Positions 1-21,150 of a stretch of 64,000 nt of DNA are shown one piece after another. Origin of the DNA: Paracoccaceae bacterium (lineage in GTDB: Bacteria > Pseudomonadota > Alphaproteobacteria > Rhodobacterales > Rhodobacteraceae); assembly GCA_020425085.1 (NCBI GenBank), contig JAGQRW010000017.1, positions 124,001 through 188,000 on the forward strand, given 5' to 3'. The notes under the pieces are model-generated. The model ran no database searches. It was not told the DNA's origin and was given only the letters and a program-made list of their open reading frames with translations. The position numbers and the translations under genes were made by a program. The first letter of the stretch is position 1; the number at the start of each line of letters is the position of its first letter.

Positions 1-2
1 AT

Positions 3-317: not shown

Positions 318-362
318 TTGCACAAAAACGTGTATAGTGGTACGGTTATGCTTGATTTAGTC
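318..362 (+). promoter_or_regulatory. Putative promoter/operator upstream of the ABC importer
   Basis: A TTGCAC hexamer at 318-323 is followed 17 bases later by TACGGT, which could be a weak -35/-10 pair. The block at 332-362, starting GTATAGTGGTACG and ending near TTTAGTC, closely matches a block at 17867-17898 in the had/korA divergent region: 12 of the first 13 bases agree, then AT, CTT and TTAG are conserved in register. The repetition in two non-coding regions of the same metabolic block suggests a shared operator or promoter. The regulator is unknown. Confidence 0.4.
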
Positions 363-398
363 TCTGGACTATTTCGTCATTCACAGCGGAGGAAAGTA

Positions 399-1553: not shown

Positions 1554-1560
1554 TACGATT

Positions 1561-1589
1561 CGGCGGGGCGTACCCGATACGCCCCGCCG
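1561..1589 (+). other. Intercistronic stem-loop between binding protein and permease
   Basis: A perfect 12-bp stem (CGGCGGGGCGTA against TACGCCCCGCCG) with a 5-base loop lies 7 bases after the binding-protein stop. No T-run follows, so it is not a classical terminator. In ABC operons such hairpins often protect the upstream binding-protein message from 3' decay and give it an excess over the membrane subunits; that role is inferred here. Confidence 0.6.
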
Positions 1590-1622
1590 ACCATAAAAAC
1601 AAAAGACAACTGCGGGGGTCAA

Positions 1623-4930: not shown

Positions 4931-5826
4931 GCAGCACCCGACCAGTCCGCACCGGTCTTGCCGGTCAGAAAGCCATCGGAAAACGCCCCTCCCGGTGCCT
5001 CGGACAACAGGGCGGCGTTCAGGCCGACGGCATCAATCCGGCCATCCAGCAGATCGCGGAACCCCTGACACACCGCCAGAAAATTGCCGGAATGCGGCGA
5101 CAGGCGCAAGGCCGTCACCCCGGCATCGCGCAGGATATCAATCTGTAACGCTGCGTTGGCGCAGGTGGATGAAAGTGTCTGCACCCCGTTCATGGCAAAG
5201 ATCGGCTGATCGTCCAGCGTGTCCACCAGCAGGCCATCGACATCCTCGCCGCATACGAACTGACAGTTATCCTTGGTACGGTTGTGCAGTCGCGCATGAT
5301 AACAGCGACCGGAAATCGCCAGCGGCAGGCGGCCATAGCCCCAAACCTCGATAATCATACCCAGATCGGCCCCAGCTTTTGCCAGTGACGCGACAGAACC
5401 AAGCGGCAATTCCGGCGGCAGACATACCCGCGTCGCGCCCTTTTTCGCCAGCCATGCCAGCGTACCTTCGTTGTAGACATTGACCAGCGGCCCAACCGAA
5501 AACGCCGCTCCTTTGGGGATATGCGCCAGCGCCGTCAGGTCGTTGATTTCAACCTCGATCCCCATCTCGCCAAGATCGGCGGTCAGGTTGCGTTCGCGTT
5601 TCAGCGTCACCAGCGCCAGACTGGTCAACGACACGGCCTTGCCGGATGCCTGCACCTGCTCCACCGCTTCGGGGATGTGGTTCTGGTAAAACGGCAGGCG
5701 TTTGGAACAGACCAGTTCGCCCAGAACCATGCGATCAACCGGCGCATCGGCGGCCATATTGCGGTTGAATTCGCGCCAGATATCCGCCTGCCAGAAAAAC
5801 TGGTTCGGCCCTATGGTCAGTTCCAT
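4927..5826 (-). CDS. ubiV: O2-independent ubiquinone hydroxylation protein UbiV
   Basis: A 299-residue member of the U32 peptidase-like family, here the UbiV branch. The start is placed at MELTIGPNQFFW, since upstream codons read into unrelated sequence. Cysteines at about 40, 175, 188 and 192 reproduce the spacing of the four residues that bind the 4Fe-4S cluster in Escherichia coli UbiV (39, 180, 193, 197). UbiV with UbiU carries out oxygen-independent ring hydroxylation in ubiquinone synthesis, with UbiT as the lipid-binding partner. It lies 10 bases after ubiU in a ubiT-ubiU-ubiV operon that would let this organism make ubiquinone without O2. Confidence 0.92.
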   Translation of the reverse strand: MELTIGPNQFFWQADIWREFNRNMAADAPVDRMVLGELVCSKRLPFYQNHIPEAVEQVQASGKAVSLTSLALVTLKRERNLTADLGEMGIEVEINDLTALAHIPKGAAFSVGPLVNVYNEGTLAWLAKKGATRVCLPPELPLGSVASLAKAGADLGMIIEVWGYGRLPLAISGRCYHARLHNRTKDNCQFVCGEDVDGLLVDTLDDQPIFAMNGVQTLSSTCANAALQIDILRDAGVTALRLSPHSGNFLAVCQGFRDLLDGRIDAVGLNAALLSEAPGGAFSDGFLTGKTGADWSGAA

Positions 5827-5836
5827 TTTCGGCCCC

Positions 5837-6814
5837 CTAACGCCACTTTTTCTGATAGGCGCCCGAGGTGGCGGCCTGCCCCTCGGCCAATGCGCCAAGG
5901 GTGCCGGCGGGCACTGGCAGGCCGGCCTCCACCGCCTCGACCGCGGCGCGGAAATTGCGCACCACTTCGGCGACGTAAGAACGCGAACGCTGCCTTCCTT
6001 CGATCTTCAGTGCCGATACCCCGGCCTTGGCCAGCGCCGGAATGAGTTCCGAAGCATCAAGACTTACGGCATCTTCAAACACATGCCCGGTCTGATCCCC
6101 GGCCGAAAAACATCCCTTGCACAAGGTCGGATAGGGAACCGGGTCATCCTTGGCGACGCGGTGTACCATCTGACCACCAAGTCGCGCCACCAGATCGCTG
6201 CCCTCTTCGGCGTAAACCACATGCGACGCGGGCGAACAGACGCCGTTCATATTGGGCGATTTGCCGGTGATATAGGACGATAGCGAACACCGACCCTCGG
6301 CCATGACGCAAAGGCCGCCAAACACGAACGCCTCGGTTTCCACGTCGATTTCGCGGTTGATGGCAGCGATTTCCGCCACCGTCAGGATGCGCGGCAGCAC
6401 CACCCGTTTGACGTCAAATTCCGAAGCATAATAATTGATGATATCCGGGTTCGCCGCTGCCGCCTGCACCGACAAATGCCTTCTCAGGCCCGGATGATGT
6501 TCCGCCGCATGCGCCAGAAGGCCAACATCGGCCAGAATGACGGCATCACAGCCAGCCGATTCTGCATCGGCCAGTGCGCGGTGCCAGATTTCCTCGGCCC
6601 CGGCGCGCGGAAAAGTGTTGATCGCCACCAGAACTTTGGCCCCACCCTGGTGAGCATAAGCGACCGATTCCGCCATTTCGTCGCGTTCAAAGTTCAGGCC
6701 GGGAAAGTTGCGGGCGTTGGTTTCATCAGCAAAGCCGCAATAAACCGCATGCGCCCCGGCATCGACCGCCGCTCGCAAAGCCGCAGGCGTTCCCGCCGGA
6801 CAAACCAGTTCCAT
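5837..6814 (-). CDS. ubiU: O2-independent ubiquinone hydroxylation protein UbiU
   Basis: A 325-residue U32-family protein of the UbiU branch. Three adjacent start codons are possible (GTG 6820, ATG 6817, ATG 6814); the last is used because it gives the family N-terminus MELVCPAG. From that start, cysteines fall at about 169, 176, 193 and 232, the same positions as the four 4Fe-4S ligands of E. coli UbiU, within GGLCVMAEGRC, NGVCSP and PTLCKGC. It forms a heterodimer with UbiV for O2-independent hydroxylation of ubiquinone precursors. The ubiT stop lies within three bases of its start, so the two are translationally coupled. Confidence 0.92.
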   Translation of the reverse strand: MELVCPAGTPAALRAAVDAGAHAVYCGFADETNARNFPGLNFERDEMAESVAYAHQGGAKVLVAINTFPRAGAEEIWHRALADAESAGCDAVILADVGLLAHAAEHHPGLRRHLSVQAAAANPDIINYYASEFDVKRVVLPRILTVAEIAAINREIDVETEAFVFGGLCVMAEGRCSLSSYITGKSPNMNGVCSPASHVVYAEEGSDLVARLGGQMVHRVAKDDPVPYPTLCKGCFSAGDQTGHVFEDAVSLDASELIPALAKAGVSALKIEGRQRSRSYVAEVVRNFRAAVEAVEAGLPVPAGTLGALAEGQAATSGAYQKKWR

Positions 6815-6816
6815 CA

Positions 6817-7353
6817 TCACATGCCACCTTTCGCACGTTGCAGACTAAGCCCGGTGCGACGTTCACAAATCGCCGCAAATTGACCGATCAGCCCGGCAAG
6901 CGGCGGCGTCAGACTGGCCACCTCCTCTGATAGGTCAAGCTCGGCGTCGTCAATGGCGTTGCGCAGCGCCAGCGTGGCCGAGGTATCCCCCTCGATCACC
7001 AGATCTCGCGAGAAAAACAGCGCATCACCATCACAGGATCCATGCACCAGCCCCAACAGCGCCGACAGCGTACCGGCAATCCGACAATCTGCCCCGTCGG
7101 CATTGCGCTGAACCGTGATCCGGGGTGTTCCGCCGGGAAAATCCATCAGCAAAACAAACGGCAAGTCGGTGGGATCAATGGCAAAACGCTTGTCGATGCT
7201 ACCGGCCAAACGGCGCAGAATTCGCGGATGACGCACCGAGATTCGCCGCGCCAATGCACTCAGCGCCAGTGTCAGCGGCATCATCGGCAACAGGCCGACG
7301 GCGCGAGACAGCATCGGATTGAACACCGGAAAATGAACGGGGCCTTGTGTCAA
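6817..7353 (-). CDS. ubiT: O2-independent ubiquinone accessory protein UbiT (SCP2 domain)
   Basis: About 178 residues with an SCP2-like lipid-binding fold; LFFSRDLVIEGDTSATLALRNAID is the stretch most like E. coli UbiT (YhbT). UbiT is needed with UbiU and UbiV for anaerobic ubiquinone synthesis and probably presents the hydrophobic precursors. The long frame starts on TTG at 7353 with GAGAG six bases upstream; the first ATG would be at 7314, giving about 165 residues. Both lengths suit the family, so the start is uncertain. It is the first gene of the leftward ubiTUV operon, about 60 bases from an FNR-type box shared with ubiD. Confidence 0.85.
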   Translation of the reverse strand: MTQGPVHFPVFNPMLSRAVGLLPMMPLTLALSALARRISVRHPRILRRLAGSIDKRFAIDPTDLPFVLLMDFPGGTPRITVQRNADGADCRIAGTLSALLGLVHGSCDGDALFFSRDLVIEGDTSATLALRNAIDDAELDLSEEVASLTPPLAGLIGQFAAICERRTGLSLQRAKGGM

Positions 7354-7413
7354 CGGAAACTCTCAGAAATTTCAGCGATATATCCGATCTAAAACCCCGG
7401 TCGATTCACTGCC

Positions 7414-7427: not shown

Positions 7428-7489
7428 GGCGGGGTGGTCGGCCGGTTCATAATTTCGGTGAAAATCCCGAGGATGCGACCATACGCGAC

Positions 7490-8989
7490 CTGCCCCCCTT
7501 TCCCAGCCTGCGCAGCTTTTTAAGCTGGTGCAAGGTTGAAAGCTGTTTCAAATCGATTCCCGACCGGGTTTCGGTACGCCATCAGCTATCGGCAGTGCAT
7601 GAACGTGTGCTGCGACATCAGGGGCCGGTTCTCAGGTTTGACGCGCCGGTGCAGGATTCGGGGGAATTGTCAAAGATACCGGTCATTGCCAATCTTTTTG
7701 GCACCACGGATCGGGTTGCGGCGGGGCTGGGTCTTGTGCCCGAAAAGGTGCCGATGCTGGGCGAGTTTCTGGCGGCTTTGCGCGCGCCCGCCCCGGTGGA
7801 CGGGATGCGCGACGCCCTGTCGCGCTGGCCGATGCTGAAGGCGGCACTGGCGACAAGGCCGAAAATCACCAACCGCGCACCGGTGCAAGAGGTTCGCCTG
7901 GAAGGCAAGGATGTCGATCTGACGGCCTTGCCGGTGCAGACCTGTTGGCCGGGGGATGCCGGGCCGCTGATAACCTGGCCGGTGGTGCTTAGCCGGCCTT
8001 TTGACAGCAAACCTGACGATTTGGCGCGTTACAACACCGGGGTTTATCGCGCCCAGGTGATCGGCAGGAACCGACTGATCATGCGTTGGCTGGCACATCG
8101 TGGCGGTGCGGCGCATCACCGGGGCTGGATGAAGGCGGGGCAGAAGATGCCGGTCGCCATCGCCCTTGGTGCCGACCCCGCCACGCTGCTATCCGCGGCG
8201 CTGCCGCTGCCCGAAAATCTGTCGGAACTTGGGTTTTCCGGTGTGCTGCGCGGTGTGCGAACCCAACTTGTCGCCGCAAAAACCGTGCCGCTCCTGGTCC
8301 CGGCCGAGGCCGAGATCATTCTGGAGGGCTGGGTTTCCCCCACCGAAACCGCGCCCGAGGGGCCATTTGGCGATCACACCGGTTATTACAATTCGGTCGA
8401 ACCGTTCCCGTTGATGGAGGTGACCGCCATCACCCACCGGCGCGATCCCCTGTATCTTTCGACCTATACGGGCCGCCCACCCGATGAACCTTCGATCATC
8501 GGTCAGGTGTTCAACGATCTCACATTGCCGGTGATCCGTCAGGCGATACCGGAAATGCGCGATCTGTGGTTGCCGCCTGCGGCGTGTTCCTATCGCATGG
8601 CGGTGATTTCCATCGACAAACGCTATCCCGGTCAGGCCAAGCGGGTAATGATGTCGCTTTGGGGGATGCTGACGCAGTTCAGCTATACCAAACTGATTGT
8701 TGTCGTGGATGACGATATCGACCCGCGCAACTGGGACGATATTGCCTGGGCGCTGGCGACCCGGATGGACCCGGCGCGCGATGTGACGATCCTTGATCGT
8801 ACGCCGATGGATTATCTTGACTTCGCCTCTCCGCTGGAAGGTCTGGCAGGCAAGATGGGGATTGACGCCACAACCAAGATTGGCGCCGAAACCAGCCGCG
8901 AATGGGGCAGGGTGATGGAAACCGCCCCCGACGACGCGCATTTTGCGGCGGATCTGGTCGGCAAGTATTTCCCGGATTTCGGCCAGTGA
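7490..8989 (+). CDS. ubiD: UbiD family decarboxylase (3-octaprenyl-4-hydroxybenzoate carboxy-lyase)
   Basis: The conserved part matches UbiD closely: MRWLAHRGGA, GPFGDHTGYYN, STYTGRPPDEPSIIG and MDYLDFASP are hallmarks of the true ubiquinone enzyme, which uses prenylated FMN to decarboxylate 3-polyprenyl-4-hydroxybenzoate. Alignment with the family places the N-terminus at PPFPSLRSFLSW, so the protein is about 499 residues (E. coli 497). No ATG or GTG opens this frame there. Candidates are CTG at 7490, ATA at 7481 (8 bases after GAGG), an ATG at 7473 in another frame, or GTG 7595, which would remove about 35 conserved residues. It faces ubiTUV across an FNR-type box, fitting a ubiquinone role. 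Confidence 0.85.
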   Translation: MPPFPSLRSFLSWCKVESCFKSIPDRVSVRHQLSAVHERVLRHQGPVLRFDAPVQDSGELSKIPVIANLFGTTDRVAAGLGLVPEKVPMLGEFLAALRAPAPVDGMRDALSRWPMLKAALATRPKITNRAPVQEVRLEGKDVDLTALPVQTCWPGDAGPLITWPVVLSRPFDSKPDDLARYNTGVYRAQVIGRNRLIMRWLAHRGGAAHHRGWMKAGQKMPVAIALGADPATLLSAALPLPENLSELGFSGVLRGVRTQLVAAKTVPLLVPAEAEIILEGWVSPTETAPEGPFGDHTGYYNSVEPFPLMEVTAITHRRDPLYLSTYTGRPPDEPSIIGQVFNDLTLPVIRQAIPEMRDLWLPPAACSYRMAVISIDKRYPGQAKRVMMSLWGMLTQFSYTKLIVVVDDDIDPRNWDDIAWALATRMDPARDVTILDRTPMDYLDFASPLEGLAGKMGIDATTKIGAETSREWGRVMETAPDDAHFAADLVGKYFPDFGQ

Positions 8990-9094
8990 CGGCGCGTTCG
9001 ATCTCTGCGCCATGTCGTCGCACCTCGGTGAAAGACGCGCGCGATTGAAAACCAGCCGCGCAAGCATGCAATGAATGAAACGAAAGGTAGAACC

Positions 9095-9760
9095 ATGTCC
9101 AACCCGCTAATTTCCGCCGACACAAAGGTCGGAGAACTGGCCGCGCATATTCCCGAAGCCGCCCAACTGTTTCGTGACAACGGCATCAGCTTTTGCTGCG
9201 GCGGCAAGCTAAGTCTTGGCGAGGCAGCCCAAAAGCACGCCAAATCCATTGATGCCCTGTTGGCGTCGCTGAATGCCGGTGCCCATCAGGCCGCCAAGGA
9301 TGCACCCGACAAAACCGAAGAACTGATCGCACATATCAAAAGCCGCTATCACGACACCCATCGTGCCGAACTGGCGGAACTGGTGCCGCTGGCGGAAAAA
9401 GTTGAATCCGTACACCACGATCATGCCGATATTCCACGGGGTCTGAGCAAGTTGCTTGGCCAGATGCAATCGGAAATGACGGCGCATATGGCGAAAGAGG
9501 AACAGATTCTGTTTCCGATGATGCTAAGCGGCGGCCATCCGATGATCGCAGGGCCGATTGGCGTCATGCGCCATGACCACGAAGGCCATATGGATCAACT
9601 GAAAGGGTTGGAGCATCTGACCAACAGTTTTGCATTGCCGGCAGATGCCTGCAAATCCTGGACGCGACTATATACGGACACCAGCAAATTTGCTGCCGAT
9701 CTGGTGCGCCACATGTATCTGGAAAACGAGATTCTGTTTCCACGCTTTGACAACGCCTGA
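9095..9760 (+). CDS. Iron-sulfur cluster repair di-iron protein (RIC/ScdA/YtfE)
   Basis: A 221-residue protein with the two expected parts: an N-terminal ScdA_N (DUF542) domain with the ISFCCGGK double-cysteine motif near residue 30, and a C-terminal hemerythrin-like domain whose histidines and glutamates (HDTHRAEL, HHDHADI, HMAKEEQILFPMM, MRHDHEGHM, HMYLENEILFPRF) bind a di-iron centre. The ATG at 9095 is preferred because it follows AAAGGTAGAACC and gives the family N-terminus. RIC proteins help rebuild Fe-S clusters after nitrosative or oxidative damage. Its place between ubiquinone genes and an Fe-S-rich reductase operon suggests protection under denitrifying conditions, an inference. Confidence 0.9.
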   Translation: MSNPLISADTKVGELAAHIPEAAQLFRDNGISFCCGGKLSLGEAAQKHAKSIDALLASLNAGAHQAAKDAPDKTEELIAHIKSRYHDTHRAELAELVPLAEKVESVHHDHADIPRGLSKLLGQMQSEMTAHMAKEEQILFPMMLSGGHPMIAGPIGVMRHDHEGHMDQLKGLEHLTNSFALPADACKSWTRLYTDTSKFAADLVRHMYLENEILFPRFDNA

Positions 9761-9882: not shown

Positions 9883-10125
9883 CTAGTTCAGGGATTCGTA
9901 TTTCGCCTGAAGCTCTTCTTCGGTTTCTTCCCAGTCGGGATTGTCCACGATGCAGGCTTCGGGACAGACCAGCTTGCATTGCGGTTCATCCTCGGCACCG
10001 ACACATTCGGTGCACTTCATCGGGTCGATGACATAGATCGGGTCACCGGCGGTGATTGCCTCGTTCGGGCAAACCGGTTCACAGGCGTCACAAGCCGTGC
10101 AGGGTTCAACTATCATCAATGCCAT
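9883..10125 (-). CDS. fdx: 2[4Fe-4S] ferredoxin, electron donor of benzoyl-CoA reductase
   Basis: An 80-residue ferredoxin. Cluster-binding motifs are CTACDACEPVCP at residues 9-20 and CTECVGAEDEPQCKLVCP around 38-55; the eight-residue insert in the second motif and the acidic C-terminal tail are typical of Allochromatium/Thauera-type low-potential ferredoxins. In Thauera and Rhodopseudomonas such a ferredoxin next to the reductase genes carries electrons to benzoyl-CoA reductase. It lies 21 bases after bcrD with its own AGGAGAG site, and the operon terminator follows. Confidence 0.9.
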   Translation of the reverse strand: MALMIVEPCTACDACEPVCPNEAITAGDPIYVIDPMKCTECVGAEDEPQCKLVCPEACIVDNPDWEETEEELQAKYESLN

Positions 10126-10146
10126 TTGCTCTCTCCTAGTTTTGAC

Positions 10147-10995
10147 TCATGATGCTTTCAGAAGCGTCCCGGCCTCTGCCAGTTTCTGATGCCGGAACAC
10201 CCCGAAAAGCGCCGCGCCGATGGCACCGGCGAAAATCGAGTCCGGATGGCTTTCGACGTTGGCTTCAATGCCTTTCATCTTTTCCAGTTCTTCACGAATT
10301 GCCTGAATCAGGCCTTCGTCCTGGGCGCTGCCGCCAGTGACCAGCACAAGACCTTCCTTGGCACCGATGGATTTCAGCAACCGCGCCAGCCGTCCGGCCA
10401 TGGAAACGTGAATACCCTTTAGGATGTTGGGCGCTGAAATGCCGCGCGAAACCATGTTGATAACATCAGTTTCCGCCAGTACCGCACAGATGCTGGATAC
10501 CGTTTCAGGATCGTCGGATTGCATGGAGAGCGAGCCGATTTCATCCTGGGCGATTCCCAGATAACGCGCGATATTCTCAAGAAACTGGCCCGAACCCGAG
10601 GCGCACTGGCTGGTCATCTTGTAGTTCAGCACCTTGCCGCGTTCATCGGTAATGATGGCGCGACCGTGCAAGGCACCGCAATCCAGCACCGAACGTGTCT
10701 CAGGATTCAGATGCCGCGCACCGCGAGCATGGGTGGTCATCGAATAGAAGTGACCGGTGTGAAACGGAATCGCCTCACCCTCGCCAGTAGTGGCGATATA
10801 ATCCATGTCCTTTTCGGTCAGCCCGGCATCGGCCAACGCCTCATCAAAGGCTTCGCGTGCCAGCTCCATCGGATCGCGCTGGCGAATGCGTTTCATTGAC
10901 CGCGCCAGCCATTTTTCGTTGCCGTCATCGTCAACATCGAAGATGACCGCCTTGACGGCACCCGTGCCGACGTCAATTCCTGCTGCCAGTGTCAT
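10147..10995 (-). CDS. bcrD: Benzoyl-CoA reductase, subunit delta (BcrD)
   Basis: A 282-residue ASKHA-fold ATPase of the BcrA/BcrD/HgdC activator family. The phosphate-binding start is [17 protein letters not shown]. Cys131 in [12 protein letters not shown] and Cys170 in [11 protein letters not shown] are the residues expected to hold, with BcrA, the 4Fe-4S cluster shared between the two ATPase subunits. ATP hydrolysis here drives low-potential electrons to the BcrB-BcrC ring-reducing unit. The length equals the Thauera subunit. Its start overlaps the bcrA stop as ATGA. Confidence 0.92.
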
Positions 10996-12317
10996 TCTTC
11001 CACTCCTTCAATTTGTCCATGGGCGGCACGGCGGGCAAATTCTGCCCCACCCAGCGCACCGGTATAGATCGAGTCCGGGTCGATGTTGATCTTCACTTCG
11101 CCGTAGTTCTCGAACACCAGCTTTCTGAGTTCACGAACCGCCGCCTCGTTCTTGGCAACGCCACCGGTAAAGGTGAACTCATCCGCAACCCCGCCCGAGC
11201 GCGACAGGATCGACATCGAACGCAGGATGATGGCGCGGTGAAGACCTGCCAGAATATCCTCACGATTCTCACCCATTGCCAGCCGGTCACGCAATTCGGC
11301 ACCCGCAAAAACCGTGCAGGTCGAGTTGATGCGCGAAGGCTTTTCGGATTTCAGCGCCATCGGTCCGAGTTCGTGCAGACCCATGTTCATTTCATCGGCG
11401 ATATAGCCCAGATAGCGTCCGGTGCCGGCGGCACAGCGGTCGTTCATCTGAAAGTTTTCGACGATGCCCTGGGGGTTGACCTGAATGCCCTTGGTGTCCT
11501 GCCCACCGATATCCAGAACCGTGCGGGTCTTGGGATACATCATATGCGCCCCCAACCCGTGGCACAGGATTTCGGAACGGATATGTTCCTTGGAGAACGG
11601 CAGCGTCACCCGGCCATAGCCAGTGCCGACCAGATAGGTTTCCTCAAGGTCAATACCCAGGGCGTGGTCCACCCGATCGCCAAGTTCGGCGGCGTTGGTA
11701 TCACCTGCACGGGCAATGCGATCCATTGCGCGCTTGAACTTTTCGTTCAGGCTGCCTGAGGGGGGGCGGTTTTCCACTGCGATGATCGACTTGTCATAGA
11801 CGTTCAGCAGAACGTCATAGGGCAGACCGGCTTCGCGTGCCACTTCTTCGGCCAGGGCCAGATACCGTGAACCGGCGATATCGCGAAAGAAATCCGACTT
11901 GCGGTCGGCATCCGGCGCGAACATTGCCGGGGCTTCTTCGCGCAATCGCCGGAACACTTCGGTCAGCGCCGCCTTGACGCCATCGCCGGTCTTTTCAAAT
12001 CGCTCACCCTTGACCTGATCTATGCAGGTATTTTCCAGGTCGGCCAACTGCTCCAGAAACTGTTCCAGGCGGAATGAACGTTCCATTGCGCCCAGAAATT
12101 CCTCGACCTTGCCGTCACTCTTGTCCTCGGCGCCGAATTCGCGCCGGAACATGGTGAAACGGGCGTCGATCATCGCCTCTTGCTGGGCCACCCGACAGGC
12201 GGTGTCATAGTTCGACCGTGAGTTGGTGATGCCGCGTCCAAGGATATCCTGGTTCTCATCCAGAATCACCGCCTTGGTGGTGGTTGATCCAAGATCAATT
12301 CCTACGAAGGTTTTCAT
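10992..12317 (-). CDS. bcrA: Benzoyl-CoA reductase, subunit alpha (BcrA)
   Basis: A 441-residue ATPase subunit of the same ASKHA family as BcrD but with an insertion of about 150 residues after the first phosphate loop ([18 protein letters not shown]), as in other BcrA proteins. Cluster cysteines are in [13 protein letters not shown] (about residue 293) and [11 protein letters not shown] (about 334). With BcrD it couples two ATP per electron pair to electron transfer into the BcrBC catalytic unit for dearomatising benzoyl-CoA to cyclohexa-1,5-diene-1-carboxyl-CoA. It is coupled by ATGA overlaps to bcrB upstream and bcrD downstream. Confidence 0.93.
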
Positions 12318-13621
12318 GCCGCCGCTCCTTTTCCGCTGCGCTTCTGTTCGACCATCTGGAAATAGCTTTCCAAACGGTTCTTGACGTTGGCTGCCGAGAA
12401 ATACCGCGGATCAACCAGGTCGGTTTCGATGAATGCCGCCGGTTTGCCGGTGCGCTTTTCAACTTCGCGCATGATCAGAAGCTGACCGGCGGAAAAGCTG
12501 TTGCAGCTTTTGATCGAGTTGATCAGCAGGCCATCAGCCTCGTATTCGTTGATATAGTCAACCAGCATGTCGATGCGCATCGGCAAACTGCGGTTGGTAT
12601 AAACGCCCAGACAGTATTCAGCCATGGTTTCCAGCGGCCGTTCGTAATCATGGCGAAAGCCAAGATCATAGGTGCCGCCAACCTTGGTATAGCTGGACGC
12701 AACCACCGTCGCACCCTCTTCATAGAACATCTTCCAGAACTGGCGGAAGTTGGTGTAGTTCGGCGGGCCTTCGACCACCAGGCGGTATTTTTCCTCGGGC
12801 ATGTCGCCATCGGGTGTTACCGGGCCTTTGCCAGCAGCAACGCGGGCATCGACCTCTTCACGCAGGAAGCGATAGTAGTCGATGGCATCGTCCGTGCCGC
12901 GGAAAGCGCCGAAAATCGGCCCGATATAATAGATGCCCCCGAAATAGGCGTCGATCGGCGACGGCTTGTTCTTGGCCGATTGCAGAACATGCACCAGATC
13001 ATCCTCGGCCTTGGCCGATTTTTTCAGGTACTCCCTGAGCCGGTCGATGTCGAACTTGACGCCCGAAACCTTTTCCAGCGTCGGAATCACGTCTTCCTTG
13101 AACTGCTTGACCATATACTGAACCATGTTCGGCGTAACCTTGCCATCGGCCATATAGGGGGTTTGCAAGAAGATGGTCGGGCATTTGTACTGCTCGCGCA
13201 GCAACTCGAACCATTTCAGGAAGGTGAAACAGCCGGTATAGGACAGCAACAGAACATCGGGGTTCGGCAGCTTGCGCCCGTTCGGGCCGATATTGCCCTT
13301 CATCATCATGCCGATGTCGGATTTCACATAGGTGCAGACATCCTCGGAATGGCCTGAACGCTCGGCCTCCATGATGTAACCGCCCGATTGTCGGCGCAGG
13401 CCGCTTTGAATGGCGTTCACCTCGGGCAGGTTGTTCACAAGGTCAAAGCACATGAGCAGTTCGTTCAGGTTGCCCGGAACGAAGGTCGAGGCAACCTTTT
13501 GACCGGTTTCGGGCGCATCCGACAAACGATCATAGTGTTTCGCCATCATCTCTTTCTGCTTCAACATCGAAGCGTCCTTGATGACTTCCTGTGCTTTCGC
13601 TTTCACTGGGGTCGGTTTCAT
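12314..13621 (-). CDS. bcrB: Benzoyl-CoA reductase, subunit beta (BcrB)
   Basis: A 435-residue member of the HgdB/FldB-like family and one of the two substrate-reducing subunits of class I benzoyl-CoA reductase. The ATG at 13621 ([13 protein letters not shown]) is chosen over the ATG at 13633 because GGAG lies six bases before it and it overlaps the bcrC stop as ATGA. Conserved cysteine segments include [16 protein letters not shown] and [13 protein letters not shown], likely cluster ligands. It pairs with BcrC to hold the 4Fe-4S clusters and the benzoyl-CoA site. Confidence 0.92.
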
Positions 13622-14793
13622 GCTGCGCTCCATAGTTTGATTGAATCGACAAAGGTGCCGGCCTGTTCGCGGATGGGCTGCATCTGACCGGAATTCTCGG
13701 CGTATTTGAAGGCGATGTAAGGAATGCCTGCGTCAGCCAGAACATGCTGCAACATCGGACGATCCAGCAATGCCGGGTCACAGAAGCTGGGCGAGGCAAA
13801 GATCACGCCTTCTGCACCGGTGCGTTTCACCGAGCGTACCAGGAACTGGCCTTTTTCTTGCTGGTTCGGTTCATATTTCGCGGCGGTGCTGCGGGAATGG
13901 TGCAGAAATGCCTGTGACAGGTTGTAAACCGGATCGCCTTCGGTCGGCACATCGTCGACCAGCCAGCGTGAAACCAGCATGAAATCGTCGTCGACCACAT
14001 AGCAACCGCTGAGTTCAAGCGACTTCAGCAAGTTCAGCGGTGGCTGTTCACAGAACATGCCGGTGACGATCACCTTGCTGTTGTCCTTGATCGGCCGATC
14101 CTCTGATGACGTGGCGTCGATATACTGACGCAGCAGTTTGGAATGCTCCTCGACCGGCAGAACCAGCCCGGCGCGGATCACCAGATACGCCTCGGAGGCC
14201 GGCGCGAGCCAGGGTTTGGCTGCACGCAAATCATAAAGCTCGGCGATCAGCTTGCGGTTCTCGTTATAGACCGCAATCGAATTCCGGATGTCGTCATCGG
14301 TGATCTTGCGCCCGCCCAGTTCCTCCAGATCATGCAGGAATTCGCGCATCTCGCCAATATAGAACTCGCCGCCAACTGAATCTTCGTAGGTCTGTGGAAC
14401 GTCGAAATACTTGCTGTAGACATTCGGGAACAGCATTTTCCACATGCCGCTGAGGTTGCGGATCACGTCACAGATCGACGGGAACAGCATGGCGTCAACG
14501 AAATCAAGCCGACCGGAAACGCCCAGTTCGATGGTCGATCTTGGGATACGGCAGATATAGCTTTGATAGTAAGCGTCGCCATGGATGACCTCAAGATTGT
14601 CACCGCCACCCATGATGCCAAGCGGCAGCATGCCGGCGGCGTGGATCAGCTCACGCGGGATATAGATCGGCATGAAACCCACGACCTTGCGGCCCGGCAC
14701 GGCCTTTTTCCATTCGCGCGCAGCATTGAAATGCATATCGTCATAGAGCGCCTGGCAGCGTTCGACTATTTCGCTAGTTGTCGTATTGGTCAT
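13618..14793 (-). CDS. bcrC: Benzoyl-CoA reductase, subunit gamma (BcrC)
   Basis: A 391-residue HgdB-like subunit, the partner of BcrB. Family marks are the VVGFMPIYIPRELIHAAGMLP segment near residues 37-57, the cysteine in SYICRIPRSTIELG, and FASPSFCDPALLDRPML near the C-terminus. Length matches Thauera BcrC (about 386). It starts on an ATG overlapping the dch stop (ATGA), so the ring-reduction subunits are translated together with the downstream pathway enzymes. Confidence 0.92.
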   Translation of the reverse strand: MTNTTTSEIVERCQALYDDMHFNAAREWKKAVPGRKVVGFMPIYIPRELIHAAGMLPLGIMGGGDNLEVIHGDAYYQSYICRIPRSTIELGVSGRLDFVDAMLFPSICDVIRNLSGMWKMLFPNVYSKYFDVPQTYEDSVGGEFYIGEMREFLHDLEELGGRKITDDDIRNSIAVYNENRKLIAELYDLRAAKPWLAPASEAYLVIRAGLVLPVEEHSKLLRQYIDATSSEDRPIKDNSKVIVTGMFCEQPPLNLLKSLELSGCYVVDDDFMLVSRWLVDDVPTEGDPVYNLSQAFLHHSRSTAAKYEPNQQEKGQFLVRSVKRTGAEGVIFASPSFCDPALLDRPMLQHVLADAGIPYIAFKYAENSGQMQPIREQAGTFVDSIKLWSAA

Positions 14794-15557
14794 TTATTCC
14801 CCCATTTGGCAGGACGTTTGGCCAGAAAGGATTGCAGACCTTCCAGCGCGTCGTGAGTGGACATCAGTTCATCCAGGTACAGGCGCTCGACCTGTTCGAG
14901 CTTGGCTACCACTCTGTCGGTATAACCAAGACGGGCGGCTTTAACCGCCAGTCGCAGTGAACTTGCACTTTTGTTTGCAAGGTGGGTATCAAAATATTCA
15001 AGTGCCGCAGCCGACGGATCGTCGGCAATGGCATCCACCAGGCCTGCCGCCAATGCATCACTGCCCGACATGCTTCGACCGGAATAAAGCAAATCCTCGG
15101 CCATGGCCTGGCCGATCCGTTCCGGCAGCAGGCAGGATGCGGCCGGGGCGAATACCCCAAGCTGCATTTCCGGCTGGCCAAGACTTGCCTTGGGATGGGC
15201 GAACAACCGGTGCCCGGCTGCGGCCACTTCCAGACCGCCGCCAAGGCATTGACCCTGGATTGCAACGAAAACCGGAACCGGGCTGTAAAGCATCCGGCGA
15301 ACCAGTGCATGCAGCGAGGCCAGCATCGACGCGCAGCCTTCGGGCAGGTGTTCCTCGACACTGGCGCCAAAGCTGAAATGCGGGCCTTCGGCATCCAGCA
15401 ACACCGCCTTGAGGTCGGTTCCGCCAAGATTGTCGACCAACGCCGTGTCAAGAGCAGCGATCATCGCCGCATCGACGATATTCGCCTTGGGCCGGTCCAG
15501 CCGCAACCGCAGCAGGCTACCCTGCCGGTCGAACCATATTTTAAGCGGTCCGCTCAT
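14790..15557 (-). CDS. dch: Cyclohexa-1,5-diene-1-carboxyl-CoA hydratase
   Basis: A 255-residue crotonase-fold protein. The start MSGPLKIWFDRQG is used because this ATG overlaps the oah stop as ATGA. The crotonase core is visible: FSFGASVEEHLP in the CoA/oxyanion region and GQCLGGGLEVAAAGH. Its place between oah and bcrC and its length match Thauera dch, which adds water to the diene made by benzoyl-CoA reductase to give 6-hydroxycyclohex-1-ene-1-carboxyl-CoA. Crotonases are hard to tell apart by sequence, so the assignment rests partly on context. Confidence 0.87.
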   Translation of the reverse strand: MSGPLKIWFDRQGSLLRLRLDRPKANIVDAAMIAALDTALVDNLGGTDLKAVLLDAEGPHFSFGASVEEHLPEGCASMLASLHALVRRMLYSPVPVFVAIQGQCLGGGLEVAAAGHRLFAHPKASLGQPEMQLGVFAPAASCLLPERIGQAMAEDLLYSGRSMSGSDALAAGLVDAIADDPSAAALEYFDTHLANKSASSLRLAVKAARLGYTDRVVAKLEQVERLYLDELMSTHDALEGLQSFLAKRPAKWGNK

Positions 15558-16690
15558 CCACGCGCCCCCGGCATATGGCTGTTGATGAATTCTTCGGTCC
15601 ATTTCACGCCTTCCGCCAGTTCGCGGCGAAGTGCGACAAAGTCGATCTCGCGGCCGTGTTCCTTGGTGCCCTCGTTGAAGGCGCGGAACCCGGTGCGGGC
15701 CTCGGTCATCATGTTCAGGCTAAGCCAGGCACGCGAGTTTTCCTTGTTGGCGTTCCAGGCGTTCAGCTTGGGTTTGCGCAACTCTTCGACCGATTTGGTG
15801 GTGCAGTCCGGGAAGGTCAGCATCAGCTTGGTGCAAAGTTCTTCAACCTTGGCATCAAGGGCGCTGAGGTCTATTTCGCCACGTTTCAGCATTTCCTTGC
15901 CGGCGGCCAGATCATCACCGGTTTTTGCTTCGCCATGCAGGATGCGGCCAAATTCGTCGGTTTTCATCCTGAGTTCCACCAGCGGGTTGCCGACATATTT
16001 GCCATCAACCTTCAGTCCCGGAACGATGTCGGTCAGAATGCCAAGTCGCAGTGCCTTTTGCGCCGAAAAGCTTTCGCAAAGAACGCCGGAATTCATCGCC
16101 TGTTCGCAGCCGATCATCACCGGCAGGAAATCGGTAGAGCCGCCGATCGCAGCCGAGCCGTGCTTGGGACCAGCCTGGCCAAATCGTGCCATGTCCTGTG
16201 CGACCGAGAAATCGCAAGCCATGCCGATTTCCTGCCCGCCGCCGATACGCATGCCATTGACGCGGCAGATCACCGGCTTGTCGCAAGCCAGGATGGCCGA
16301 GACCATGTCGTTGAACAGGCGCATGTACTGGCGGTATTCATGTGGGCGACCGGCATAGTATTCGGCATATTCCTTGGTGTTGCCACCGGTGCAGAATGCC
16401 TTGTCGCCGACCGCGGTAAACACCACCGCATTGACGTCGCGCGCATTCGATGCGGCGCGGAATGCCAGAATTACCGATTTCACCATGTCGGTTGTGTAGG
16501 AATTGAACTGGGTCGGATTATTCAGAATAATCCAGGCGTTATAAAGACCCTTGGCAACCGAACCGTCGGGCATTTTGGCCGGGCGTTTTTCATAGATCAC
16601 GCCGCCGGTGATTCCTTCGCGGATTTCATCGGAAACCAGGTCATGCGGCAAAAACTCGAAACCTTCGGGCTTTGTCGGTATATTGTTCAT
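15554..16690 (-). CDS. oah: 6-oxocyclohex-1-ene-1-carbonyl-CoA hydrolase
   Basis: A 378-residue crotonase-superfamily protein, longer than ordinary hydratases and close to the 377 residues of Thauera Oah. It shows the segments of the Oah/BamA group: NAWIILNNPTQFNSYTTDM, FCTGGNTKEYAEYYAG and RVNGMRIGGGQEIGMACD. The enzyme adds water and opens the ring to give 3-hydroxypimelyl-CoA. The ATG at 16690 follows GAGG at a suitable distance; another in-frame ATG lies 12 bases upstream. It lies 13 bases after had and overlaps dch. Confidence 0.93.
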   Translation of the reverse strand: MNNIPTKPEGFEFLPHDLVSDEIREGITGGVIYEKRPAKMPDGSVAKGLYNAWIILNNPTQFNSYTTDMVKSVILAFRAASNARDVNAVVFTAVGDKAFCTGGNTKEYAEYYAGRPHEYRQYMRLFNDMVSAILACDKPVICRVNGMRIGGGQEIGMACDFSVAQDMARFGQAGPKHGSAAIGGSTDFLPVMIGCEQAMNSGVLCESFSAQKALRLGILTDIVPGLKVDGKYVGNPLVELRMKTDEFGRILHGEAKTGDDLAAGKEMLKRGEIDLSALDAKVEELCTKLMLTFPDCTTKSVEELRKPKLNAWNANKENSRAWLSLNMMTEARTGFRAFNEGTKEHGREIDFVALRRELAEGVKWTEEFINSHMPGARG

Positions 16691-16703
16691 GTCATCCCTC
16701 ATG

Positions 16704-17771
16704 TTAGTTCACCGACGGCACGAGAATGGCACGGCGAACAAATTTTCCGTCATGGACGGCTTGAAAAACTTGGTTGATGTCGTCCAGCGGATGCTGTTCG
16801 ACGAATGGGGCCAGCTTGACCTTGCCATCCAGCACCAGATCCAGCGCCCCGGCATACAATTCAGGCGGGCAGCCCCAGTTGCCAAGCAGGCGAGCGTGAA
16901 AGGCCATCAGGTTGGACAGGCGAACCTCGACCTTGTCCATGGTAAAGCCGACAACGCACATGGTCGCCCCATGGTTGAGCAGACCGAATGCCGCCTGTTG
17001 CCCGGCGGCGGTGCCGGAACATTCCATGATGATCCATTCGGTTGTCCGTAGGCCATTGGCCTTGGCAAAACCGATGATTTCCTTTTTCAGGCTGCGCGGG
17101 TCGTATTCGCGGGCATTAAGGGTCAGCGTCGCGCCGTATTGTTTCACCAGCTCCAGCTTGGCGGCAACCACGTCGATCGCGACCACCGTCGCGCCCAACG
17201 CCGCCGCAACCTGCACCGCATAGCCGCCGACACCGCCAACACCGTTGACAACCACCAGATCACCCTTGCCGATACCTGCCTGCACCGCCGCCTGATAGGG
17301 CGTGGTCAGCGCATCGGCCACCACCGACACATCGGCCAGCGACAGGCCGACTTTGGCCAGGCGATCCACGTCGACCGCGCACAAACCGCGCGCCGGTACG
17401 GTTATGTGGCTGGCGAATCCGCCTTCGATATCGTTGCCGGGCATTTTCTGGCTGCGGCAGATGGTGCCTTTGCCGCGCTTGCACAGATCACATTCGCCGC
17501 AGGGCATGACCGCCGGAATGATGACCGCGCGGCCCTTCCATTCCTCGGCGCCCTTGCCGGTCTGGGTGACGTAACCGCTGATTTCATGGCCAAGGGTCAG
17601 CGGCAGCGGCTGATTGGTGGAAACACCGTCGTAGTAATAACCAAGGTCGGTGTGACAGACACCGCAACCGGCGATTTCGACCACGACCTCACCTTCGCCA
17701 GGTTGGGCTGGCTCAAACTCTTCCATCCTCAGAGGAGCTTTTTGTGCATCCATTACCCAACGTCGCGCCAT
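16704..17771 (-). CDS. had: 6-hydroxycyclohex-1-ene-1-carbonyl-CoA dehydrogenase
   Basis: A 355-residue zinc-dependent medium-chain alcohol dehydrogenase, the length of Thauera Had. It has the catalytic-zinc segment [13 protein letters not shown], the structural-zinc quartet [15 protein letters not shown] and the Rossmann motif [13 protein letters not shown]. It oxidises the hydroxy-CoA from Dch to 6-oxocyclohex-1-ene-1-carboxyl-CoA with NAD. The start [13 protein letters not shown] at 17771 has AAGGA seven bases upstream. It is the first gene of the leftward had-oah-dch-bcrCBAD-fdx operon; its promoter must lie in the region shared with korA. Confidence 0.92.
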
Positions 17772-17853
17772 TTGTCGTTCCTTTTCCCTGAATGCTTGCG
17801 ATTCGGGCGAATTTCCTGAACCACCTTGGTCGTATTGAATTGACAGCATTTGA

Positions 17854-17900
17854 TTTCACTATTACCGTAAAGTGGTACGCGAATACTTTAATTAGGTCAA
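17854..17900. promoter_or_regulatory. Shared operator-like block in the had/korA divergent region
   Basis: GTAAAGTGGTACG at 17867-17879 followed by AATACTTTAATTAGGTC repeats the block found at 332-362 before the ABC importer. It also forms a small dyad, TACC-N7-GGTA, at 17864-17878. Overlapping its right end, TTTAA-TTAG-GTCAA (17887-17900) resembles an FNR box with one perfect half; the equivalent place before the importer has the other half perfect, TTGAT-TTAG. It could serve both had and korA promoters. The regulator is not identified. Confidence 0.45.
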
Positions 17901-17949
17901 TACCGAAATCCACAAGGTTTCCTCAACGCAACAAAACAGGCCGGATGTC

Positions 17950-19683
17950 ATGACGAACAAAGCAATACCAAAGAAGAGTGTCTCAGTCGCAATCGTCGGT
18001 TCCGGCGGGGCCGGGTCCATTACTGCCGGGTCCATTCTGCTGGAAGCTGCTGGAAAAACCGGCTGGTACGGGATGATGAACCGCTCGGTCGGGCCACAGA
18101 TTCGTGGTGGTGAGGCGGCGGCGCTGGTGCGTCTGGCCAATCACCCGGTGGAATGTACGGCGGAAAAATATGACTTGCTGATTGCCATCGACTGGAAGAA
18201 CGCCGACCGATTCGCTGCTGAAATGCCGCTGAAGACCGAAGGTCTGATCATTGCCGACCCGACCTCGGGCCCAATCCCGGAACTGATCAGTTCTTCCGGG
18301 GCTACGGTTGCCGAAATTCCGATCAAGGAACTGGCCAAGGAAATTCCCGGCGGACGCGAAAACATGATCGCCGCAGGTCTGGCCGCCGGTTTCATCGGCC
18401 TTTCGGTGGATGACCTGATGTCGGTCATCGGCACCAAACTTGCCAACAAGGGTCAGGCCGCCATCGACGCCAGCCGCGCCTGTGTCGAAGCAGGCATCGC
18501 CCAGTCCAGAAATTACGACTTCCGCTTTGAAATCGGTGAGGCCGACCTCAGGCACAAGGGCCGCTGGCTGATCACCGGCAACGAGGCGATTGGCCTTGGC
18601 GCGATCCGTGGCGGCGTTCGGTTTGCCGCCGCCTATCCGATCACGCCCGCGACCGAGGTACTGGAATGGCTTTCCCCGTCGCTGACCGAGGTTGGCGGCG
18701 CGCTGGTTCAGGCCGAAGATGAACTTTCGTCGATCAACATGGCCATCGGCGCTTCGTTCGGCGGCCAGCCTTCGATCACCGCTACCTCGGGACCGGGTCT
18801 TTCACTGATGATGGAATCGCTAGGCCTGGCCGCTGCATCAGAAGTGCCGATCGTGGTGGTTGACGTGATGCGGGTCGGCCCATCGACCGGGATCGCCACC
18901 AAATCGGAACAATCCGATCTCAATATCGCGGTTTATGGCTTTCACGGCGATGCACCGCATGTGGTGGTGGCACCGCTGACCGTGGCCGATTGCCTTTATA
19001 CCGGCCAATGGGCCGCACATCTGGCCGAAGCTATGCAGGTGCCGACCATCGTTCTTTCCGATCAGGCACTGGGTCAGTCGCGGGTTCTGATGAAACGCCC
19101 GGCCAACCTGTCGTTTTTCGCCAAACGCAAGACCTGGGAACGCACCAGCGAAGAACCATATCTTCGCTATGCGCTGACCGCAGACGGCATTTCACCGATG
19201 GCCATTCCCGGCACCACCGGCGGCCAATATACCGCTGATGGCCTGACGCATTCGCTGCGGGGTCATCCATCGACCCGGCGGTCGGACCAGCAGGACCAGA
19301 TGGACAAACGCCACCGCAAGGTCGCCGATTTCGATTATGGCGTACATTGGGGCGAGATCACCGGCGAGGGTGAAACCGTCATCCTGACCTGGGGTTCGAT
19401 CACCGGCCCGGCGCGTGAGGCGATTCGCAGCCTCAAGGCTGAAGGCATCAAGGTAAAGCTGGTGGCGATGCGATTGATCGCTCCATTCCCCAAAGAGGCG
19501 CTGGATCAGTCGCTGAAAGGTGCCAAGCGCGTTCTGGTGGTGGAACAATCGCATTCCGGCCAGTTCCGCAACTACCTCAGGGCCAATACCGAAATCCCCG
19601 GCGAGATCCGCCATTTCCATCGCCCCGGGCCGCATAATATCGGCGCCGGTGAAATTGCCGCTCAAATCCGAGATTGGAAATAA
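17950..19683 (+). CDS. korA: 2-oxoacid:ferredoxin oxidoreductase, alpha/gamma fusion (KorA)
   Basis: A 577-residue protein joining a gamma domain (about 1-190, VAIVGSGGAGSITAGSILL) to an alpha domain (from about 205, AIGLGAIRGGVRFAAAYPITPATEV and TSGPGLSLMMESLGLA). With KorB it should oxidise a 2-oxoacid with CoA, release CO2 and reduce ferredoxin. In Thauera aromatica a two-subunit 2-oxoglutarate:ferredoxin oxidoreductase of this layout lies beside the benzoyl-CoA genes and regenerates the ferredoxin used for ring reduction. The same context here supports 2-oxoglutarate, but the sequence alone does not fix the substrate. It is divergent from had. Confidence 0.85.
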   Translation: MTNKAIPKKSVSVAIVGSGGAGSITAGSILLEAAGKTGWYGMMNRSVGPQIRGGEAAALVRLANHPVECTAEKYDLLIAIDWKNADRFAAEMPLKTEGLIIADPTSGPIPELISSSGATVAEIPIKELAKEIPGGRENMIAAGLAAGFIGLSVDDLMSVIGTKLANKGQAAIDASRACVEAGIAQSRNYDFRFEIGEADLRHKGRWLITGNEAIGLGAIRGGVRFAAAYPITPATEVLEWLSPSLTEVGGALVQAEDELSSINMAIGASFGGQPSITATSGPGLSLMMESLGLAAASEVPIVVVDVMRVGPSTGIATKSEQSDLNIAVYGFHGDAPHVVVAPLTVADCLYTGQWAAHLAEAMQVPTIVLSDQALGQSRVLMKRPANLSFFAKRKTWERTSEEPYLRYALTADGISPMAIPGTTGGQYTADGLTHSLRGHPSTRRSDQQDQMDKRHRKVADFDYGVHWGEITGEGETVILTWGSITGPAREAIRSLKAEGIKVKLVAMRLIAPFPKEALDQSLKGAKRVLVVEQSHSGQFRNYLRANTEIPGEIRHFHRPGPHNIGAGEIAAQIRDWK

Positions 19684-19685
19684 TC

Positions 19686-20519
19686 ATGAACGCTCCAACC
19701 AAGAACAAATTCTCTGCCCGAGACTTCACTTCGGATCTCACCCCGGTCTGGTGCCCCGGCTGCGGCGATTTCCATGTGCTGATGTCCACCACCAAGGCGC
19801 TGGCCGAACTTGGCACTCCGCCCGAAGATATCGCGGTGATTTCCGGCATCGGCTGCTCCTCGCGCATTCCGGCCTATACCGATTGCTATGGCTTTCACGG
19901 CGTGCATGGCCGTTCACTGGCGCTGGCAACCGGCCTGAAGGTGGCAAGCCCCGGTCTGACCGTATTGGCAATGAGCGGTGATGGCGACGGGTTTTCCATT
20001 GGCGGCAATCACTTCATCCATGCCTGCCGGCGCAATATCGACATCACCTATATTGTGATGGACAACCGGGTTTATGGCATGACCAAAGGCCAGCCATCAC
20101 CAACCACCGAACCGGACTGGGACAGCGCGCTGTCACCGGGTGGTACCGGACTTAGCCCGTTTCACCCGCTGGTGATCGCGCTGGCATCCGGTGCCAACTT
20201 TGTTGCCCGCTCGTTTTCGGGCGACATCAAGAACACCACAAAGATCATCGTCGAAGCGGTGAAACATCCCGGATTTTCCTTTGTGCAGATCCTCAGCCCT
20301 TGCGTGACTTTCCGCCCGGATGAGAAGGATTGGAAAAACACCGTTCACCCCGCCTCGGTCGAGGAAACCGATGATCCGGCCCGTGCGGCAAGGCGTATCA
20401 TGACCGATGACGGCATGAATACCGGTATCCTTTATCGGGGCAATCGCGCCCCCTATAAGCCGCAAGTTACCGGCAAAGGTGTGGAAACCATCGAACTTGA
20501 GCGCCAGTTCGAGATCTGA
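19686..20519 (+). CDS. korB: 2-oxoacid:ferredoxin oxidoreductase, beta subunit (KorB)
   Basis: A 277-residue thiamine-diphosphate-binding subunit. It has CPGCGDFHVL and SGIGCSSRIP near the N-terminus, which with a later cysteine (SPCVTF) bind a 4Fe-4S cluster, and the TPP motif GDGDGFSIGGNHFIHA followed by MDNRVYGMTKGQ. The ATG at 19686 follows GGAAA and lies two bases after the korA stop, so the two are one operon. It transfers electrons from the decarboxylated 2-oxoacid to ferredoxin. Confidence 0.9.
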   Translation: MNAPTKNKFSARDFTSDLTPVWCPGCGDFHVLMSTTKALAELGTPPEDIAVISGIGCSSRIPAYTDCYGFHGVHGRSLALATGLKVASPGLTVLAMSGDGDGFSIGGNHFIHACRRNIDITYIVMDNRVYGMTKGQPSPTTEPDWDSALSPGGTGLSPFHPLVIALASGANFVARSFSGDIKNTTKIIVEAVKHPGFSFVQILSPCVTFRPDEKDWKNTVHPASVEETDDPARAARRIMTDDGMNTGILYRGNRAPYKPQVTGKGVETIELERQFEI

Positions 20520-20525
20520 TCCTTG

Positions 20526-21017
20526 TCAGCCGCCTGCCCCGGTGGGCGGCTGAAACGCCATTTCGCGGGCGGTATTGATCTGACGCAGGATCAGATTGGT
20601 CTGGGCCGAATCAACCGCCGGCAGGCGAAACAGAAACTCCTCCAGAAACCGGTTATAGGCGTCGATGTCGCGGCACAGCACCAACAGGTGATAATCCGCC
20701 TGCCCGGTGGTGGCGTAACATTCCTGAACCTCGGCCCGCCGCTCCACTGCGCGGATGAAACCGACCATGTTGTCAGGATTGTGCCGGGTCAGGCGCACAT
20801 GCACGATGGCGCGGAATTCCAGGCCGCAGGCGCGGGCATCAATGCGAATGCCATAGCTTTCGATCACGCCGCTTTCTTCCAGTGCGCGTACCCGCCGCCA
20901 GCAGGCAGATGCGCTCATCCCGACGCGATCGGCCAGTTCGGCGTTGGAAATGCGCGAGTCCTTTTGCAACTGGTTGAGAATGCGGAAATCGCTGGTTTCA
21001 AGACGGGTGCGTGACAT
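20526..21017 (-). CDS. Lrp/AsnC family transcriptional regulator
   Basis: A 163-residue regulator with an N-terminal helix-turn-helix (DFRILNQLQKDSRISNAELADRVGMSASACWRRVRAL) and a C-terminal RAM ligand-binding domain. The start MSRTRLETSDF is taken at 21017 after GGAAA. It is divergent from the fused indolepyruvate:ferredoxin oxidoreductase gene across about 130 bases and is its likeliest regulator, probably responding to an aromatic amino acid or its keto acid; ligand and targets are inferred. Its 3' end meets korB tail to tail, six bases apart. Confidence 0.9.
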   Translation of the reverse strand: MSRTRLETSDFRILNQLQKDSRISNAELADRVGMSASACWRRVRALEESGVIESYGIRIDARACGLEFRAIVHVRLTRHNPDNMVGFIRAVERRAEVQECYATTGQADYHLLVLCRDIDAYNRFLEEFLFRLPAVDSAQTNLILRQINTAREMAFQPPTGAGG

Positions 21018-21150
21018 GGCATGAATTTCCAGATTGGCAGATTTCAAGGATTATCCTGCCTATATATCGCCCGTTCCTGACAAGAAGGAAAAGTTTTTTC
21101 ACTCTAACTGGTGTAATTGCATCAAACTAGCGCAGAAAAGTCGTATCATC

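Follow-up and report, generated by a model that had tools for sequence, protein, structure and literature searches.

A Thauera-type benzoyl-CoA reductase operon in a Rhodobacteraceae genome and its recurrence across the host genus

Anaerobic reduction of the aromatic ring is usually placed in the Rhodocyclales, Magnetospirillum and Rhodopseudomonas. The benzoyl-CoA pathway gene set of Thauera aromatica comprises had, dch, oah, bcrCBAD and fdx, together with korAB; the bzd cluster of Azoarcus encodes an ATP-dependent class I reductase; and BadL of Rhodopseudomonas palustris acetylates aminobenzoates and has the repressor BadM as its partner. Here we describe an operon of this kind on a stretch of 64,000 nucleotides (the window) from a Paracoccaceae bacterium (assembly GCA_020425085.1, contig JAGQRW010000017.1, positions 124,001 to 188,000). 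A first-pass annotation, made from the DNA letters and their open reading frames, had placed the operon in a host of Rhodobacteraceae type, which was right. We are confident that, taken as a whole, the locus is best explained as an intact Thauera-type benzoyl-CoA operon, stably carried by the host genus, that has also moved among Rhodobacteraceae. The pathway is of a known kind, the host lineage is unusual for it, and within the host genus it is standard equipment.

The eight genes had-oah-dch-bcrC-bcrB-bcrA-bcrD-fdx were found as the single leftward operon of the first-pass annotation, on the minus strand of window positions 9883-17771, from the ATG of had at 17771 to the end of fdx at 9883 (Table 1). 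Each frame has an ATG start and a single terminal stop, and all eight genes passed the curated NCBIfam cut-offs, the seven pathway genes doing so on Thauera-type models. The five ATGA overlaps that had been read at the junctions were located at oah/dch, dch/bcrC, bcrC/bcrB, bcrB/bcrA and bcrA/bcrD, with no overlap at had/oah and bcrD/fdx. Also borne out was the assignment to the Thauera type and not to the BadK/BadH/BadI route: the BadI model scored 122.2 on Oah, below its NCBIfam cut-off of 467.6, the Bzd models were likewise below theirs (BzdN 118.2/453.8 on BcrC, BzdO 72.4/448.6 on BcrB and BzdQ 146.4/380.2 on BcrA), and BadK and BadH were absent among the 25 best model matches listed per protein. 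When aligned with the solved 3-methylbenzoyl-CoA reductase, both activase cysteines of BcrA and of BcrD match those of MbdQ, and BcrB and BcrC match MbdO and MbdN, respectively, at their main cysteines (which of the aligned cysteines bind clusters is our assumption); the BcrC cysteines are invariant in an alignment of 20 BcrC. Based on the four BcrA-D models and these cysteines, the enzyme is assigned as a class I benzoyl-CoA reductase (BCR) of the Thauera type, for which ATP-dependent two-electron reduction of benzoyl-CoA is predicted, and the lower pathway is assigned to the same type based on the Dch, Oah and Had equivalogs, all of which are encoded inside the operon.

The unit extends beyond had, where the first-pass annotation had stopped, to korAB (17950-20519, plus strand). 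A korA gene was present at 37 of 46 named bcr loci, a set limited to loci where bcrD is complete and the sequence runs on for 4 kb past it, in which a match anywhere in the locus was accepted, and which consists of bcr loci only, including a few bins titled Gammaproteobacteria, Burkholderiales, Myxococcota and SAR324. KorAB, a candidate 2-oxoglutarate:ferredoxin oxidoreductase with the KorA-type subunit over cut-off and KorB 1.5 bits under, likely regenerates reduced ferredoxin, and Fdx, presumed to be of low potential as in the first-pass annotation, is the likely electron donor to BCR. A pattern scan of the had/korA gap found no FNR-like site at two or fewer mismatches; across the window the pattern matched 32 times versus 25.3 expected. 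A site with one mismatch lies at 7414-7427, between ubiT and the UbiD-family gene, such chance matches being common.

Table 1. Features of the operon and its surroundings in window coordinates (model scores are given as bits/cut-off).
Feature	Position	Strand	Basis and remarks
Phenylacetate-CoA ligase, 3' end	1..200	+	TIGR02155 603.7, below cut-off 646.3; gene starts upstream of window (L131:2857-4200)
Liv-type ABC transporter, five genes	318..4930	+	Open reading frames 318-1553, 1623-2495, 2492-3457, 3454-4242, 4199-4930
ubiT-ubiU-ubiV, O2-independent ubiquinone synthesis	4927..7353	-	NF047962, NF047963, NF047965, all over cut-off
UbiD-family decarboxylase	7595..8989	+	TIGR00148 445.7/244.85; start uncertain
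Ric/YtfE di-iron Fe-S repair protein (hemerythrin + ScdA_N)	9071..9760	+	TIGR03652 211.7/204.7; YtfE model 231.7, below 254; PF01814, PF04405
fdx, dicluster [4Fe-4S] ferredoxin (YfhL-type)	9883..10125	-	NF033683 110.8/86
bcrD, BCR activase-type subunit	10147..10995	-	TIGR02261 448.5/312.85
bcrA, BCR activase-type subunit	10992..12317	-	TIGR02259 781.4/578
bcrB, ring-reducing module subunit	12314..13621	-	TIGR02260 853.9/486.55; ATGA with bcrC; longer frame to 13633, start 13621 preferred
bcrC, ring-reducing module subunit	13618..14793	-	TIGR02263 675.8/421.15
dch, cyclohexa-1,5-diene-1-carbonyl-CoA hydratase	14790..15557	-	TIGR03189 417.2/292.5; start 15557 preferred; ATGA with oah
oah, 6-oxocyclohex-1-ene-1-carbonyl-CoA hydratase/hydrolase	15554..16702	-	TIGR03200 652/464.45
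had, 6-hydroxycyclohex-1-ene-1-carbonyl-CoA dehydrogenase	16704..17771	-	TIGR03201 583/338.65; start 17771
had/korA divergent intergenic region	17772..17949		Both promoters presumed here
korA, fused 2-oxoacid:ferredoxin oxidoreductase alpha-type subunit	17950..19683	+	TIGR03710 556.2/482.75
korB, beta subunit	19674..20519	+	TIGR02177 260.4, 1.5 bits under cut-off 261.9; NF008820 282.1/402
Lrp/AsnC-type regulator	20526..21047	-	Lrp model 114.6, below cut-off 233
Fused indolepyruvate-type:ferredoxin oxidoreductase (IOR)	21034..24576	+	NF009589 1629.9/816; true start probably internal

BcrC was over its cut-off in nine of the ten genomes of the host genus (8/8 among the high-quality ones) and in 10 of the 394 genomes of the family sample, two of these from the host genus; the counts in the class and phylum samples were 15/385 and 3/398, the window's own genome being counted in each. 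At E <=0.001, 16 of the 394 family genomes had a BcrC match, and because the matches in G344 and G245 are contig-end fragments below cut-off, at least 10 is how the family count should be read. The statement in the first-pass annotation that the group seldom carries the cluster therefore holds for the family and fails for the host genus, where the cluster is routine. The same nine genus genomes carry BcrC, a PadB-like protein and 4-hydroxybenzoyl-CoA reductase, all of which are missing only in G394, a 77% complete bin, and the operon gene order of the window recurs in genus-mates. The stretch from korB through fdx has all ten of its genes with open frames in Ruegeria marisrubri ZGT118 and in Roseovarius amoyensis GCL-8, whose records carry strain titles. 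In the profile search of contigs 594 stretches matched, 589 of which encode a relative, and the best 80 were used. Five loci (L116, which is the same place as L158, and L153, L161, L104 and L111) have bcrCBAD and korAB with no close dch, oah or had adjoining; theirs is a reduced operon, for which the ring-opening genes must lie elsewhere or differ. Plasmid carriage was rejected, as all 20 plasmid records that match BcrC do so at <60% identity and the annotated ones are 2-hydroxyacyl-CoA dehydratase or YjiM-type.

The BcrABC tree has 85 rows, derived from 102 candidate loci by dropping 14 without a gene and 3 duplicates, and in it the window falls in a starred set of 23 rows that includes bins titled Roseibium and Halieaceae. 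A seven-gene BCR tree (32 rows) groups the window with two Roseovarius records (97/99) and places members of the family from other genera within the spread of the host genus. rpoB was matched in 26 of 30 genomes, and its tree uses 25 rows, G704 being omitted because its match lay on more than one contig. In the rpoB tree the host genus stays together on a node of its own (87/90), the remaining eight members of the family form another (100/99), and the window has G399 as its partner (99/98). A single clade for the genus was rejected on the seven-gene tree (approximately unbiased test, p 3.2e-5), and the conflict with rpoB therefore points to exchange within the family. Against a simple history is that the single-gene trees are weakly resolved and partly differ, with the window in no starred small group for bcrB and oah and grouped with G398, L054 and both Roseovarius records for korA; the operon may be a mosaic, of which the seven-gene tree is an average. 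In the BcrABC tree the BCR of G363 (L146), another member of the host's family, is paired with a record from the Rhodospirillales (L118; 95*), probably through a separate gain or misbinning.

The rarity of the operon in the family and the disagreement with rpoB could also be read as the marks of a recent foreign island in the window genome, as opposed to a lineage trait, an explanation that we consider improbable given the presence of the system in nine of ten genus genomes and the shared gene order of genus-mates. The comparison of GC and codon use with the flanking genes, put forward as a check in the first-pass annotation, told the same way: it found no deviation, 125 of 500 random gene sets being as deviant, and recent transfer into the window genome was rejected on composition. 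Because the operon is routine in the genus and native in composition, there is no sign that the window genome acquired it recently; of the earlier suggestion that the pathway was acquired, what stands is movement within the family. We infer that the trait is old in the genus and has been exchanged within the family.

A different challenge concerns the substrate, as the reductase might act on a compound other than benzoyl-CoA, such as a substituted benzoyl-CoA. The best solved relative is indeed a 3-methylbenzoyl-CoA reductase, although the PDB list held no Thauera-type BCR, and phenylacetate and 4-hydroxybenzoyl-CoA genes are the regular neighbours. We regard this as a little less probable still than a recent island, as the scores are far above the Thauera-type BCR cut-offs and the same operon encodes Dch, Had and Oah, the substrates of which derive from benzoyl-CoA.

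The operon sits in a region of ~50 kb that starts upstream of the window and also holds 4-hydroxybenzoyl-CoA reductase, PadBCD-like, phenylacetate-CoA ligase and UbiTUV genes. The part of the contig directly upstream of the window carries the phenylacetate-CoA ligase gene, the PadBCD-like genes beside it (molybdopterin and 4Fe-4S domains found, the membrane anchor read from the sequence), 4-hydroxybenzoyl-CoA reductase and a four-gene 2-oxoacid oxidoreductase. The alpha and beta subunits of this 4-hydroxybenzoyl-CoA reductase are over cut-off and gamma is below (242/257.8), and the alignment of HcrA with the solved enzyme 1rm6, which we take to be that of Thauera, spans 753 residues. On other contigs of the window genome, 4-hydroxybenzoyl-CoA reductase occurs once more, as does a PadB-like gene with 64% identity to the first. 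This further PadB-like copy belongs to another group of korAB-, IOR-, CoA ligase- and PadBCD-like genes, which were identified by reading the sequence at L223:1359-17348. A Box cluster lies 107 kb beyond had on the same contig, with BoxB, BoxC and benzoate-CoA ligase side by side and over cut-off, and BoxA assigned by sequence reading only; no other benzoate-CoA ligase of the window genome is over cut-off, and such a ligase is over cut-off in 10/10 genus genomes. NarG is present in the window genome and, counting it, in eight of ten genus genomes. The Liv-type transporter, whose substrate-binding protein scores 101.8 on the Liv model (cut-off 477) and whose other four genes were read from the sequence, is a candidate aromatic uptake system. 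At window positions 7395-7595, homologous coding sequence runs upstream of the first standard start of the UbiD-family gene; the gene may have a non-standard start or contain a frameshift.

From these genes we propose a facultative degrader in which several aromatics would converge on benzoyl-CoA, the ring being opened by Box with oxygen and by Bcr without it. Aromatic amino acids, which IOR may feed into the pathway, and phenylacetate would probably reach benzoyl-CoA by way of IOR, phenylacetate-CoA ligase, the PadBCD-like enzyme and then a 2-oxoacid oxidoreductase; 4-hydroxybenzoyl-CoA would probably be converted by its reductase, and benzoate by the ligase of the Box cluster, Box being the oxygen-dependent route. 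The ring-reducing module would consist of BcrC/BcrB and the ATP-hydrolysing activase of BcrA/BcrD, with electrons supplied by ferredoxin that KorAB recharges. Dch, Had and Oah would then hydrate, oxidise and open the ring, yielding an aliphatic CoA ester for beta-oxidation. If the operon is expressed as this scheme predicts, the phenotype would be anaerobic growth on aromatics, with nitrate (NarG) as the likely electron acceptor.

Several results weigh against this reading of the locus. No curated model is over cut-off for, or names, the PadBCD-like genes, and the PadE, PadG and PadI equivalog models stayed below cut-off (PadG 277.3/700, PadI 220/700, PadE 83.2/300); an identity with phenylglyoxylate dehydrogenase PadEFGHI was therefore rejected, and the phenylglyoxylate step is a guess. 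NosZ, which is present in six of ten genus genomes, had no match in the window genome at E <=1e-50, and denitrification may therefore be partial (NarG and NosZ being the steps searched for). Downstream beta-oxidation had no gene assigned to it, none of the genes read was recognised as a known regulator of the benzoyl-CoA pathway, and 16S was not found in the host genome, which is therefore likely a bin. That last point might suggest that the cluster came from a contaminating contig, to which we give next to no credence in view of the 327-kb contig, the nine of ten genus genomes with the same system and its presence in the two strain-titled records from the family.

The surroundings of bcr loci have recurrent satellite genes, with hemerythrin at 35, GNAT (often tandem) at 34 and a membrane protein of the heme-copper oxidase fold at 22 of the 46 named loci; over 90 loci, some of which are the same place twice, the counts are 50, 54 and 32, respectively. 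Most of the 24 control loci (464 kb) were taken from the window genome and its genus. Hemerythrin and GNAT are both absent at nine of the 46, including three loci of the Rhodobacteraceae clade (L049, L054 and L055). In the window genome the trio is 21 kb away, upstream of the window, with GNAT at 23 kb: tandem GNAT, hemerythrin and heme-copper-fold genes follow the 4-hydroxybenzoyl-CoA reductase genes on the same strand (L130:5521-8419), and the GNAT copy carries PF00583. At 40% coverage, a match to GNAT may stem from a lone GNAT gene. A single match covers >80% in 19 of the 46 loci, a figure that overstates the fused form because four of these (L083, L086, L093 and L112) have genes of only 163-165 aa. 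At L093:16050-17102 the tandem GNAT is present as two adjoining genes, possibly a pre-fusion state.

Canonical heme-copper oxidases have their histidines in helices 2, 6, 7 and 10. The satellite membrane protein has the subunit I fold, with invariant histidines in helices 2, 6 and 11 only. A reading as NnrS was not upheld, as Pfam gave no match at 0.001 for the copy in the window genome; among its relatives Pfam COX1 matched 4/22 and NnrS 3/22 at E <=1, both below cut-off for member 1, NCBIfam gave weak scattered matches and a PDB profile sequence search gave nothing at E <=1. We speculate, with considerable doubt, that alphaproteobacterial bcr operons travel with an unrecognised guard unit, made up of hemerythrin, GNAT and a heme-copper-fold protein apparently without the usual histidine set, that might detect or clear O2 or NO and either control expression of the oxygen-labile reductase or shield it in bacteria able to alternate between Box and Bcr. 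In these recurring satellites lies a possible explanation, open to experiment, of how an oxygen-labile enzyme is operated by facultative bacteria.

Being genus-wide and otherwise scattered in the Rhodobacteraceae, the operon suggests that relatives of the roseobacters may use aromatic compounds, aromatic amino acids among them, once oxygen is gone, and the two carriers recorded as strains are material for testing anaerobic aromatic use. No report of a BCR operon in this family turned up among the titles and abstract openings listed in searches of open-licence full texts. In the portions available, Bcr was not placed in Rhodobacteraceae by PMC8605020, PMC13186573, PMC13170169, PMC8329499, PMC6449761, PMC6191541, PMC3598227 or PMC10673493, nor by PMC10803450 ('rhodobacter' 0 times), PMC11278965 or PMC8166890. 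The same portions describe Marivivens with Box enzymes (PMC11278965) and bins in which key anaerobic genes were undetected (PMC8166890).

Among the known systems, the bad cluster of Rhodopseudomonas palustris (BadDEFG, BadK/H/I) likewise has a class I reductase, and differs in that the BadI model is not reached in the window operon. GNAT genes as neighbours are a further shared feature, comparable to BadL of R. palustris (PMC6191541); GNAT matches occur at the 34 named loci counted above, and the GNAT copy of the window genome (PF00583) lies 23 kb off. BadM was not recognised among the genes read at the window locus, no model search for it being made. The bzd cluster of Azoarcus is set apart by the sub-threshold scores of its models on the window proteins. 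The closest counterpart is Thauera aromatica, which has the same gene set as the window operon and whose models are over cut-off; the locus described here differs from it in the host family, in joining pad-like and hcr genes to the operon, and in that the benzoate-CoA ligase gene is part of the Box cluster, at a distance of 107 kb from had.

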